Of a stretch of 64,000 nucleotides of DNA, positions 37,636 to 44,499 are shown in pieces. How positions within the stretch are numbered: position 1 is the stretch's first letter; each line of letters opens with the position of its first letter. Under the pieces are notes generated by a model. It saw only the letters and a list, made by a program, of their open reading frames with translations, had not been told where the DNA came from and did no database searches. The stretch is from Blautia parvula. GTDB lineage: Bacteria > Bacillota > Clostridia > Lachnospirales > Lachnospiraceae. A program made the translations under genes and the position numbers. The stretch covers positions 5,361,001-5,425,000 of the forward strand of contig NZ_CP084061.1 in the NCBI RefSeq assembly GCF_020215665.1. Reading direction: 5' to 3'.

Positions 37636-37681
37636 TGGATATAATTATATTATAAAAAATGTATGCTTTTCTATGGATATA
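37636..37681. promoter_or_regulatory. Direct repeats between MATE and AraC genes
   Basis: TGGATATA occurs at 37636-37643 and again at 37674-37681, 38 bases apart, with a related TATGGAT at 37574-37580. Spaced direct repeats of this kind are typical AraC-type binding sites. The function is inferred from position. Confidence 0.4.
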
Positions 37682-39604: not shown

Positions 39605-40114
39605 ATGCTGAAACCGAATGAGGTTCAAAAACATGCGAAACAGAAAGAAAATGAGAATATCAGATTTCGTACCTTTTTGAAATGCAATGCAGAGGAAGAA
39701 GAACTGGACGCACAGTTTTTGAGACTGCATAATGAATTTTTTGCAGACTATGACTGCAGTAAATGCCGTAATTGCTGCAAGATGTATCATGGTACAATTC
39801 CGGAAGAAGATGTGGAAAAGGATGCCGGGCATCTGGGTATTACGGTGGAAGAGTTTAAAAAATTATATTTGAAAAGAGATGAAATCTCAGGTGACTATGA
39901 TACAAAGCATATGCCCTGTGACTTTCTTCAGGAGGATGGAACCTGCAGATTGGGAGAATGCAGACCAAAAAGCTGCAGGGATTATCCGTTTACAAATCAG
40001 CCGGAACGTCTGTGGAGTCTGTACAGTGTATTAGAAGCAGTATCTGTATGTCCGGTGGCTTTTGAGATATATGAGTGTTTGAAAAAGGAATACGGTTTTA
40101 GAAGAAAGAGATAA
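39605..40114 (+). CDS. YkgJ-type cysteine cluster protein
   Basis: 169 residues. The conserved cysteines CSKCRNCCK, CDFLQEDGTC and CRPKSCRDYP match the YkgJ/FliB-N Zn/Fe-chelating family of unknown function, which probably binds a metal cluster. It stands alone between regulators. Confidence 0.8.
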   Translation: MLKPNEVQKHAKQKENENIRFRTFLKCNAEEEELDAQFLRLHNEFFADYDCSKCRNCCKMYHGTIPEEDVEKDAGHLGITVEEFKKLYLKRDEISGDYDTKHMPCDFLQEDGTCRLGECRPKSCRDYPFTNQPERLWSLYSVLEAVSVCPVAFEIYECLKKEYGFRRKR

Positions 40115-40172
40115 GAAAACCTTACTGTCGGTTAACATGAGCCTGTTTATGCGATGATACTTATCGACTTAC

Positions 40173-40223
40173 ACCCCTTTCTGTGATATGATAATCACTG
40201 TATTATATATCACAGAAAGGGGT
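40173..40223 (+). promoter_or_regulatory. 17-bp perfect inverted repeat occluding a ribosome binding site
   Basis: Arms 40173-40189 and 40207-40223 are exact complements (ACCCCTTTCTGTGATAT and partner) around a 17-base loop. The right arm contains the AAAGGGG ribosome binding site of the TetM-like gene and ends six bases before its ATG, so folding would hide the start site. A weak promoter (TTAACA 40132-40137, GATACT 40156-40161) would start transcription just before the left arm. Confidence 0.75.
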
Positions 40224-40229
40224 ATTTTC

Positions 40230-42965
40230 ATGGAAAATACATCCGAAAAGAGAGAGAATAAATCGTTTTATAAAACGTCAAAACATATGAGTGTGGGTCT
40301 GTTGGCCCATGTGGATGCCGGCAAGACAACACTGGCTGAGAGTATCCTGTATCTGACGGGCAGTATCAGAAAACCAGGGCGTGTGGATCATCAGGATGCA
40401 TTTCTGGACACCTATGACCTGGAACGGGAGCGGGGAATCACAATCTTTTCCAAACAGGCTGAGGTAAAACTGGGAGAAAAGGAAGTGACACTTCTGGATA
40501 CTCCGGGGCATGTGGACTTTTCGGCGGAGATGGAAAGGACCCTGCAGATACTGGATTACGCGGTCCTGGTCATCAGCGGCGCTGATGGCGTACAGGGACA
40601 TGTGCAGACATTGTGGAGGCTTCTGACCCGATACGAGATTCCTGTGTTCTTGTTTATTAATAAAATGGACCAGGAGGGAACTGACAGGCAGAAGCTGCTG
40701 GAAGAACTGCAGAAACGCCTGGATGAAAGGTGTATAGCCTTTGAGGAGGAACAGGAGGCCTTTTATGAGAATCTGGCTATGAGTGATGAGGCTGTACTGG
40801 AAAAATATCTGTCTGACGGCACTGTGGAGCAGGGAGAAATCGTCCGGCTGATAGCGGAGCGGAAAGTATTTCCCTGCTATTTCGGCTCTGCCCTGAAAAT
40901 AGAAGGAGTGGAGGAGTTTCTGCAGGGTCTGGAAACCTATACGGCCTGTCCGAAATACCCGGAGGATTTCGGCGCCAGGATATACAAAATAGCCAGGGAC
41001 GCCCAGGGGACCCGTCTGACTTATATGAAAATCACGGGCGGAACTCTGAAGGTGAAAGGAATGCTGACAAACCGCCGTGATGAACAGGCGGATAGTGATG
41101 AGATCTGGGAGGAAAAAGCGGACCAGCTCCGTATCTATTCCGGAGCCGGTTTCCGTGCTGTGAGCGAGGCACCTGCAGGGACAGTGTGCGCGGTGACAGG
41201 GCTGTCCAGGACATACTGCGGAGAGGGGCTGGGCGCTGAGACTGAGTCGGAGCTGCCGCTTCTTGAGCCTGTTCTCACCTATCAAATCCAGCTTCCGCCG
41301 GAATGTGATGTGCACCAGATGTATCTGAAGCTCCGCCAGCTGGAGGAGGAAGAACCGGAACTGCACATTGTCTGGGAAGAGCAGTCCAATGAAATCCATG
41401 CACAGGTTATGGGAGAGGTGCAGATAGAAATTCTGAAACGGCTGATCGGGGAACGATTTGGCACGGAAGTGGAATTTGGAGCGGGAAGTATCGTGTACAA
41501 AGAAACCATCACAGAGCCGGTGGAAGGGGTAGGGCATTTTGAACCTCTCCGCCACTATGCGGAGGTGCATCTTCTCATGGAGCCGGGAGAGCGGGGCAGC
41601 GGCCTGCAGTTCGAGACAGCCTGCAGTGAGGATATCCTGGAACGAAACTGGCAGCGTCTGGTGCTGACACATCTGGAAGAAAAACGCCACAGAGGTGTGC
41701 TGACAGGTTCCGAGATCACGGATATGAAGATCACACTGGTGACAGGACGAGCACATTTAAAGCATACAGAAGGCGGAGATTTCCGGCAGGCTACTTATCG
41801 TGCCGTGCGCCACGGACTGAAATGTACAACCAGTCTGCTGCTGGAACCTGTCTACGAATACCGGCTGGAAATCCCCTCCGACAAGGTGGGAAGGGCGCTC
41901 TCAGACATCCAGAAAATGTACGGCACATTTTCCGAACCGATCATAGAGGGGGATATGACCATACTGACAGGTACCGCCCCTGTATCCGCCATGCGGGATT
42001 ACCAGACAGAAGTGATCGCCTATACCAAAGGCCACGGACGTCTTTCCTGCACACTGAAGGGATACGAACCCTGCCACAATGCGGAGGAGGTCATCGCTGA
42101 AAAAGGCTATGATTCCGAGAAGGATACGGAAAATCCCACAGGCTCTGTTTTCTGTTCCCATGGCGCCGGTTTTGTGGTGAGTTATGATAAAGTGCGGGAT
42201 TACATGCATCTGGACAGCGGCCTTAGTCTGGAGAAAAAAGAGAAGCCGGTTCAGGAATCATCCGCTCAGATATCACCTTCCTCTTACACGGGTGGCGGTC
42301 TGGCAGATGAAAAAGAGCTGGAAGAAATCTTTGCCCGCACATACGGAACTGCCAAAAAGGAAAGAAATCCATTCAACAGAAAACGTACCGTAAGCGCAGA
42401 GTCATCTTCCTCCAGGCAATACAGGCCTGCAAAGCAGGTGACAGAGGAGGAATACCTGCTGGTAGACGGCTATAATATTATATTTGCATGGGAAGAGTTA
42501 AAAGATCTTGCCAATGCCAGCATTGAGGCCGCCAGAAATAAGCTCATGGACATCCTCAGCAATTATCAGGGATATAAGAAGAACACACTGATCCTCGTAT
42601 ATGATGCCTATAAAGTGGAGGGCAATACGGGAGAAGTAATGAAATACCACAATATCTATGTAGTTTATACAAAAGAGGCGGAAACAGCGGACCAGTACAT
42701 TGAGAAAACGGTCCATGAGATTGGAAGAAAACACCGGGTTACCGTGGCAACCTCTGACGCACTGGAGCAGATCATCATTCTGGGCCAGGGCGCGAGCCGC
42801 CTCTCAGCCGCCGGCCTGAAAGAGGAGATTCAGGCTGCAGACATAGAAATCCGAAGCAATTATCTGAACCAGGGACAAAATGGGAAAAATTATTTGTTTG
42901 ACCATATGTCGGATGAACTCCAGGCGTTGATGGAGGATGTCAGGATGGGGAGGAAGAAGCTGTAA
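40230..42965 (+). CDS. TetM-like translation GTPase fused to Rae1/YacP-type NYN nuclease domain
   Basis: 911 residues. The first 665 or so follow the ribosomal protection/EF-G-like family: G1 AHVDAGKTT (about 25-33), G2 RGIT, G3 DTPGH, G4 NKMD, then domains II-V to LKGYEPCHNAEEV. After an unstructured linker rich in Lys and Ser, residues about 738-905 form a YacP/Rae1 NYN domain (YLLVDGYNIIFAW, VYDAYKVEGNTGE, TADQYIEKTVHE, VATSDALEQ) with the acidic residues of that nuclease fold. B. subtilis Rae1 cuts mRNA in the ribosomal A site, so the fusion may deliver a nuclease to stalled ribosomes. A tetracycline resistance role is possible but should not be assumed. ATG 40230 has AAAGGGG in the inverted repeat; an in-frame ATG at 40188 lacks a site. 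Confidence 0.85.
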   Translation: MENTSEKRENKSFYKTSKHMSVGLLAHVDAGKTTLAESILYLTGSIRKPGRVDHQDAFLDTYDLERERGITIFSKQAEVKLGEKEVTLLDTPGHVDFSAEMERTLQILDYAVLVISGADGVQGHVQTLWRLLTRYEIPVFLFINKMDQEGTDRQKLLEELQKRLDERCIAFEEEQEAFYENLAMSDEAVLEKYLSDGTVEQGEIVRLIAERKVFPCYFGSALKIEGVEEFLQGLETYTACPKYPEDFGARIYKIARDAQGTRLTYMKITGGTLKVKGMLTNRRDEQADSDEIWEEKADQLRIYSGAGFRAVSEAPAGTVCAVTGLSRTYCGEGLGAETESELPLLEPVLTYQIQLPPECDVHQMYLKLRQLEEEEPELHIVWEEQSNEIHAQVMGEVQIEILKRLIGERFGTEVEFGAGSIVYKETITEPVEGVGHFEPLRHYAEVHLLMEPGERGSGLQFETACSEDILERNWQRLVLTHLEEKRHRGVLTGSEITDMKITLVTGRAHLKHTEGGDFRQATYRAVRHGLKCTTSLLLEPVYEYRLEIPSDKVGRALSDIQKMYGTFSEPIIEGDMTILTGTAPVSAMRDYQTEVIAYTKGHGRLSCTLKGYEPCHNAEEVIAEKGYDSEKDTENPTGSVFCSHGAGFVVSYDKVRDYMHLDSGLSLEKKEKPVQESSAQISPSSYTGGGLADEKELEEIFARTYGTAKKERNPFNRKRTVSAESSSSRQYRPAKQVTEEEYLLVDGYNIIFAWEELKDLANASIEAARNKLMDILSNYQGYKKNTLILVYDAYKVEGNTGEVMKYHNIYVVYTKEAETADQYIEKTVHEIGRKHRVTVATSDALEQIIILGQGASRLSAAGLKEEIQAADIEIRSNYLNQGQNGKNYLFDHMSDELQALMEDVRMGRKKL

Positions 42966-44271: not shown

Positions 44272-44499
44272 TAAAGTTACTCTGCCTTTCCTTTGGACGC
44301 TGCAATCTCTGTGGCAATCGTTTGCTCTTCGCTATCAATTTCCTTCTTTTTTGGCTGTAATAAACAATAACCGCTGTCTGATATATTATTATGATATAAA
44401 AGCGATACGAAATATATATTTTACATCTTGCTTCACAAAAGTATAATATATAAAAGAATAAAAAACAACCCAAACCGACAGCGGTCAACAGGAGGAATC

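Follow-up and report, generated by a model that had tools for sequence, protein, structure and literature searches.

A GTPase–NYN fusion of Blautia parvula appears to stand in the place of Rae1/YacP and lies apart from the Tet proteins

When a translational GTPase of the elongation factor G (EF-G)/Tet superfamily runs on into a nuclease domain of the Rae1/YacP type, is the product a tetracycline resistance protein with an addition, or is it the Rae1 of its cell? The question is raised by a gene in a 64,000-nucleotide stretch of the Blautia parvula chromosome (assembly GCF_020215665.1, contig NZ_CP084061.1, positions 5,361,001 to 5,425,000); this whole stretch is called the window, and positions are numbered within it. 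A sequence-only reading had described the gene, at 40230–42965 on the plus strand, as a TetM-like ribosomal GTPase fused to a Rae1/YacP NYN nuclease domain. The evidence given here points to the second answer. The fusion appears to have taken Rae1's place in this genome, having left the old operon, and by its place in the tree, its tip loop and the NCBI cut-offs its GTPase half is not a Tet protein.

The reading frame is unbroken over 911 codons. An alternative in-frame ATG at 40188 would give 925 codons; the start at 40230 is preferred because a Shine-Dalgarno-like AAAGGGG at 40216–40222 has the spacing that suits it. The gene and its parts are as follows.

40230–42965, plus strand: GTPase–NYN fusion gene, open frame and translation of 911 residues, one of 101 distinct fused frames examined
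40281–40940, plus strand: G domain, residues 18–237 (Pfam GTP_EFTU, E = 5.9e-51), with AHVDAGKTT, DTPGH and NKMD intact
40974–41210, plus strand: domain II, residues 249–327 (Pfam EF-G_D2, 20.3 bits, below the 27-bit cut-off), within the EF-G/TetM alignments
41265–41480, plus strand: domain III, residues 346–417 (Pfam EFG_III, 31.6 bits, cut-off 27)
41487–41822, plus strand: domain IV, residues 420–531 (Pfam EFG_IV, E = 1.5e-17)
41745–41783, plus strand: domain IV tip loop GRAHLKHTEGGDF, residues 506–518, the family signature by alignment
41838–42080, plus strand: domain V, residues 537–617 (Pfam EFG_C, E = 6e-18)
42081–42209, plus strand: short C-terminal extension past domain V, residues 618–660, common to unfused relatives
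42210–42449, plus strand: linker of about 80 residues (661–740), mostly of low model confidence
42309–42347, plus strand: conserved linker helix EKELEEIFARTYG, residues 694–706, from conservation and the model
42456–42944, plus strand: NYN_YacP (Rae1-type) nuclease domain, residues 743–905 (Pfam E = 1.2e-51)

The GTPase part is thus complete through domain V, as the sequence-only reading had held, and the G motifs, domains II to V (domain II below its cut-off) and the fold match place it in the EF-G/Tet superfamily of translational GTPases. Structural alignment with TetM (3j9y) covers model residues 17–654 and so reaches into the C-terminal extension, shortly past which several unfused frames stop.

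A scan of genome contigs confirmed at least 597 related stretches, 80 of which (59–71% identity across most of the query) were retained for comparison. The 101 distinct fused frames, the window's included, comprise 95 picked by a motif pattern (96 before a duplicate of the window, L085, was removed) and six that the pattern missed and that were checked separately (L047, L053, L135, L137, L145 and L147); L104, truncated by a contig end, was left out of this count. The unbroken frame, the relatives at 59–71% identity and the 101 fused frames rule out an assembly error or a frameshift join. The fusion is genuine, and the suspicion that similar ones occur in other Lachnospiraceae is borne out: they are widespread. 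Catalytic-type residues have been kept in both halves. DTPGH together with N144, K145 and D147 is present in all 95 frames of the main set, for which the AHVDAGKTT motif was itself part of the selecting pattern, and four aspartates of the nuclease domain are present in all 101. The architecture is already published: the accessible text of Atkinson 2015 (PMC4342817) reports ten Clostridiales with a Tet-like GTPase joined to a YacP-like NYN domain, filed under Tet and read as antibiotic resistance by a possible new mechanism. These are very probably the same proteins as the window's. As far as our searches tell, three things are new here: the protein is reassigned from the Tet group to a displaced Rae1, the fused GTPases are placed in a single clade, and a promoter element is described.

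The C-terminal part matches PF05991 (NYN_YacP) over profile positions 1–165 of 166, with 175.4 bits against a cut-off of 24.6 (E = 1.2e-51), and the YacP crystal sequence (5mq9/5mq8) with E = 2e-26. Its acidic residues are D746, D792, E816, D821 and D843, and in the alignment D746, D792 and D821 correspond to YacP D7, D53 and D81; we take D7 and D81 to be catalytic. D746, D792, D821 and D843 are the four aspartates invariant among the 101 fused frames; D746 belongs to the pattern that picked 95 of them, and only the other six test it freely. Among phage records 13 have an NYN match, and the ten listed (H16–H25) are unannotated, some possibly being bacterial sequence.

The fusion is the sole PF05991 match in the 6.25-Mb single-contig genome. 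At the old yacP locus of this genome cysS, an mrnC-like RNase III gene, rlmB and a sigma-factor gene are found (Pfam matches for all four), with three bases between the stop codon of rlmB and the start of the sigma factor and no yacP between them. In the unfused relatives L114, L116 and L120 yacP lies in precisely this slot, between rlmB and the sigma factor (sigH); in L111 it also follows rlmB, but a QueH gene separates it from the sigma factor, and in L109 and L112, also unfused Lachnospiraceae, it has other neighbours. The fusion itself does not lie after rlmB, which is a matter of location and not of protein family. Because the fusion is the only NYN_YacP protein of the cell and the yacP slot is empty, it appears to have taken Rae1's place and therefore most probably does Rae1's work; the claim that it fills the Rae1 role is supported in this indirect way. 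The wider order is consistent with such a replacement. NYN_YacP occurs in 363 of 395 genomes, as a single match in all but four, of which three (G016, G037 and G304) have fragments or a split match and one (G254) has two fused copies. A fusion together with an intact stand-alone yacP was found in none of the 363.

Is the other half a tetracycline resistance protein? Against the NCBIfam Tet models it scores 414.7 of 775 bits (NF012153), 260.6 of 1100 (NF033148) and 220.1 of 1420 (NF012155), and it reaches no Tet cut-off among the 25 of 39 families listed. The EF-G cut-off is also missed (TIGR00484, 287.9 of 659.4 bits), and the same genome has two other EF-G-type frames of 719 and 715 residues. 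A second protein of this genome does pass an NCBIfam Tet cut-off, with 851 bits (C1:4303820-4305640, L125), and is probably the genuine ribosomal protection gene of the strain. The label 'TetM-like' therefore holds at the level of the superfamily, the GTPase being alignable almost end to end with TetO and TetM, and fails against the 775-bit general Tet cut-off.

The tip of domain IV is different too. The fused GTPase has GRAHLKHTEGGDF, against GLYYSPVSTPADF in the Tet protein of its own genome and GVYYSPVSTPADF in that of genome G119, in the order printed; the signature is KHTEGGDF where Tet proteins have YSPVSTPADF, and the Tet-type loop III (YSPVSTP) is lacking. The loop before the tip, GVLTG, is of EF-G length, one residue longer than GLYG of Tet. 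Read by eye off the alignment, H509 falls on H573 of Thermus thermophilus EF-G and K511 on P509 of TetO. H512, T513 and G515–F518 are conserved in 95/95 frames and H509 and K511 in 94/95; L135 and L137, among the six frames that the pattern missed, have KHTSP.DF tips. A different tip loop is no proof that tetracycline activity is absent, because TetM with its loop III changed to alanine at three positions (S508A/P509A/V510A) stays active according to the available text of PMC4750697.

In the trees the Tet/Otr rows, only three in number, stand apart from the clade of fused GTPases, with support of 97 (58 rows) and 99 (77 rows) in the Shimodaira–Hasegawa-like approximate likelihood ratio test (SH-aLRT). 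All fused GTPases (35 of the 58 rows, 38 of the 77) group together in a single clade with SH-aLRT 99, nested among unfused relatives; the 58-row tree lacks L127, L132 and L147, which the motif pattern missed, and the 77-row tree lacks L126 by choice. Membership with TetM and TetO, which the sequence-only reading had assumed, is thus not upheld: the clade is its own, the tip differs and the score lies below the Tet cut-off. More distant EF-G/Tet-type GTPases form a second group (L157–L164; frames of 659–755 residues, mostly with HTHP.DF-type tips) from other families of the phylum, outside both the Tet and the KHTEGGDF clades. YacP is present in eight of ten genomes with such 'second tier' GTPases.

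The annotation of these proteins is mixed. In the plasmid collection 41 records match, of which two span 80% or more of the query, from Monoglobus pectinilyticus and Agathobacter rectalis. The fused protein of A. rectalis is annotated as Tet-family and the other as 'translation factor GTPase family protein', so that the expectation of a tetracycline resistance label held for one of the two. Among the unfused Ligilactobacillus relatives listed, 12 of 13 are annotated to the TetM/TetW/TetO/TetS family. Ligilactobacillus accounts for 33 of the 41 plasmid records, and its relatives (47–48% identity) lie on large plasmids of Ligilactobacillus salivarius (H3–H15). In four genomes (G157, G343, G272 and G066) the fused gene seems to be interrupted within one contig by a frameshift, a stop or an assembly fault.

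What, then, might the fusion do? Bacillus subtilis Rae1 is a ribosome-associated endoribonuclease acting in the A site (PMC6613710, PMC8266666), the first of its substrates to be characterised is given as S1025 (PMC11780869) and bmrC/bmrD are among its candidate targets (PMC10632193), all according to the accessible parts of these papers. We lean, if only slightly, to the view that the fusion serves as Rae1 in this genome: an mRNA endonuclease directed to the ribosome and tethered to a dedicated, non-Tet, EF-G-like GTPase. The GTPase half would most probably give the NYN domain its access to the ribosome, and cutting in the A site is predicted by analogy with B. subtilis Rae1; nuclease activity, ribosome binding, gating by GTP and a hand-over from domain IV to the NYN domain would follow from the same picture. 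In a first step the GTP-bound fusion would visit the factor-binding site of ribosomes with an empty or slow-filling A site, the domain IV tip sampling the decoding region. Hydrolysis of GTP would then swing domain IV out. The NYN domain, tethered by the linker of about 80 residues with its conserved helix, would enter the vacated A site and cut the mRNA codon there. Finally, the ribosome on the broken message would pass to rescue and the RNA to exonucleases.

Between residues 660 and 742 the linker measures 70–207 residues (median 88) in the 95 frames, and its helix is conserved at E696 (94/95), I700 (93/95), R703 (87/95) and T704 (92/95); the helix was not seen in the C-terminal ends of the unfused frames compared, and it may be a docking site. 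An AlphaFold2 model built on 46 aligned fused proteins has the helix at 694–705, between stretches (667–694 and 703–737) with a predicted local distance difference test score (pLDDT) below 50. The GTPase fold matches EF-G best (Z 33.1), with TetM 3j9y at Z 29.2. A Foldseek search with the whole model returned only EF-G/Tet chains among its best 50, and for this reason the NYN fold is judged by sequence alone.

Several observations, continued in the distribution below, weigh against the proposal. The model is middling (mean pLDDT 76.5, predicted template-modelling score 0.60) and uninformative on the placement of the NYN domain; the long EF-G alignments have root-mean-square deviations of 16–27 Å, against 2.5 Å for an N-terminal EF-G fragment aligned over 298 residues. 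There would hardly be room in one A site for the NYN domain and domain IV together, so that a hand-over or a second step is needed, and the order of the steps given above is conjecture. E816 is present in 97 of the 101 fused frames and changed in four, and the fused L147 has lost the tip signature. The NYN tree taken alone requires three changes and has no single fused clade, although such a clade is compatible with it (approximately unbiased test, p = 0.58). The open-licence literature searched yielded neither a functional study of a fused protein, nor an experiment on one, nor MIC data for tetracycline.

How tightly the two halves go together was asked of the 395 genomes of the order. The GTPase profile cut of 1e-135 was our choice in a bimodal list, and two genomes were moved after rechecking; the tally was made by hand, and 12 of the 32 genomes lacking NYN_YacP were obtained by subtraction. 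Because scoring covered three GTPase candidates per genome, the negatives may include a few misses. The GTPase is found in 299 genomes (about three quarters), 298 of which have NYN_YacP; in the one exception, G056, a contig end truncates the gene. Among the 96 GTPase-negative genomes 65 have NYN_YacP and 31 do not. This co-occurrence within the order is mostly the fusion itself and shared ancestry. In at least 26 genomes of the order the GTPase is unfused and YacP stands alone at another locus (four of these GTPases, in G018, G120, G147 and G206, are split, shortened or cut by a contig end). Outside the order, in a phylum sample of 398 genomes, three of nine genomes with an unfused relative lack NYN_YacP (G721, G766 and G632), or four of ten if the more distant G649 is counted. 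YacP accompanies the unfused relative in 6/9 genomes, no more often than it occurs in 20 GTPase-negative genomes hand-picked from the list (13/20). Strict dependence of the GTPase on YacP, which 298/299 would suggest within the order, is accordingly broken outside it. The GTPase can therefore exist independently of YacP, and what made the partnership permanent was the fusion. Fused genes are found across several families of the order and also, in the phylum sample, outside it (for example in G676, G557 and G714), whether by transfer or by common descent.

These counts bear on the best-surviving alternative, that the halves act separately and the fusion fixed nothing but their co-expression, the GTPase pursuing a task of its own, for instance on slow ribosomes, while the nuclease does that of Rae1. 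The genomes with both proteins unfused show that fusion is not needed, and the GTPase also occurs without YacP. Yet the fusion is maintained across several families without an intact separate gene beside it in any of the 363 genomes, and the linker helix is conserved; both hint at joint work, and we think separate action unlikely. Less likely still is a role in ribosome maturation or in processing of rRNA or tRNA, with the GTPase docking on ribosomes or their precursors and the NYN domain trimming rRNA or tRNA. The old neighbourhood speaks for it: yacP adjoins rlmB in unfused relatives and lies in the same chromosomal region as mrnC in B. subtilis, where RlmB modifies and MrnC matures 23S rRNA (accessible text of PMC6613710 and PMC8266666). 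A role of the domain in rRNA/tRNA maturation has been proposed (as reported in the available part of PMC4342817), and B. subtilis rae1 and yacO mutants are described in PMC6613710, in the part available, as suppressing efp alike. The characterised relative is nevertheless the A-site endoribonuclease with S1025 as substrate and bmrC/bmrD as candidates, which favours mRNA over rRNA or tRNA as the target. Least probable is the suggestion in Atkinson 2015 that the protein protects the ribosome from tetracycline or some other antibiotic of the A site and that the RNase contributes a new step: superfamily membership, the nearly whole-length alignment, the Tet annotations, the published filing under Tet and the tolerated TetM loop III mutant are outweighed by the sub-cut-off scores, the separate clade, the different tip and longer loop, the 851-bit Tet-type protein of the same genome and a presence in about three quarters of the order that is unlike an acquired trait. 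The scores, the 851-bit protein and the wide presence in the order likewise speak against an acquired resistance gene, a reading to which the active TetM loop mutant leaves some probability.

Two further elements lie at the start of the gene.

40164–40192, plus strand: promoter-like site, TCGACT, 17 bp, TATGAT, with TG before the second hexamer, from a consensus scan
40173–40223, plus strand: palindrome, left arm 40173–40189 (spacer and start of the -10 hexamer), right arm 40207–40223 (Shine-Dalgarno region)

In a survey of 77 loci with at least 170 nucleotides upstream (window included; spacers of 15–19 allowed), TCGACN, a spacer and a TATGAT-like hexamer are present in 31, with a spacer of 17 bp in 30 and of 18 in one; the other 46 loci lack the element. 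The pattern searched is unique to this locus in the genome. The promoter spacer is complementary to the Shine-Dalgarno region, and the segment 40112–40270 folds with z = -4.64. Across the 31 loci the duplex energy of each arm with its own partner averages -18.2 kcal/mol against -14.7 (standard deviation 0.56) for swapped partners, and in the 18 less similar loci -16.6 against -12.9 (standard deviation 0.68); in both sets 0 of 5000 permutations were as low. The arms co-vary across relatives, although not at every locus, z being close to zero at some (L003, 0.4; L034, -0.6; L036, -0.8; L080, -0.3). Because the left arm comprises the start of the -10 hexamer and sequence upstream of it, transcripts from the candidate promoter would lack this arm, and only read-through RNA would hide the Shine-Dalgarno site; the alternative is a dyad operator. 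Read-through RNA that hides a Shine-Dalgarno site is known from some insertion sequences. A search for RNA families gave 11 sub-threshold matches only, mostly to microRNA hairpin families, which were taken as chance.

The first eight codons (40230–40253 in the window) are of the M-x-x-T-S-E-x-K type and similar in many promoter-bearing relatives. A start was found for 30 of the 31 promoter loci, the window's own not among them, with TS at codons 4–5 in 20 and TSE at codons 4–6 in 14. The rest of the N-terminal extension is variable, and other fused members start differently. The conserved TSE might be a self-cleavage site. Neighbouring genes are not conserved in the 80 loci (53 of them with about 4 kb on both sides): the window genes at 39605 and 38728 have no match, those at 37663, 36155 and 43384 are matched in 5, 6 and 5 loci respectively, and that at 44428 in one.

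A bolder version of the Rae1 proposal joins these elements to it and is tentative. The fusion would be a GTP-gated, single-protein surveillance factor that samples, cuts and clears, its GTPase also helping to move or release the ribosome after the cut. Many Lachnospiraceae would then rely on it, under its tetracycline-resistance label, as their chief nuclease for quality control in the A site, and the pairing of promoter spacer and Shine-Dalgarno region would insulate its expression from read-through.

How Rae1 finds its way into the A site is not explained in the accessible text of the literature consulted, and the fusion offers a test of a nuclease steered there by a GTPase. Here evolution has linked Rae1 to a GTPase from the superfamily that enters the A site; the pair persists in several families, and the free enzyme has been lost. 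A further implication is that many gut Clostridia may have a core gene whose naming as a resistance gene is poorly founded, a point of consequence for counts of the resistome; the tetracycline-resistance label on the fusion is probably wrong.

Compared with known systems, the fusion shares with B. subtilis Rae1/YacP (5mq8/5mq9) the NYN_YacP domain and its acidic residues (D7, D53, E76, D81 and the Asp of ATSD in YacP). YacP, however, is a free protein (a crystal chain of 181 residues) whose gene is co-transcribed with yacO, according to the part of the literature available, whereas here the domain is the C-terminal part of a 911-residue GTPase encoded elsewhere on the chromosome. Like Tet(M) and Tet(O) (chains of 639 residues), the GTPase half is EF-G-like, of similar length and ends in a short C-terminal extension; unlike them it belongs to another clade, has another tip, scores below the cut-offs, is chromosomal, occurs in about three quarters of the order and has an added nuclease. 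With EF-G it has in common the domain order, the length of the tip loop and the tip histidine aligned with H573 of T. thermophilus, but KHTEGGDF is absent from the single EF-G row compared, and separate EF-G-type genes exist in the same genome. Relative to the fusions of Atkinson 2015, the replacement of a gene, the single clade and the placement outside Tet are points that the accessible text of PMC4342817 does not contain.

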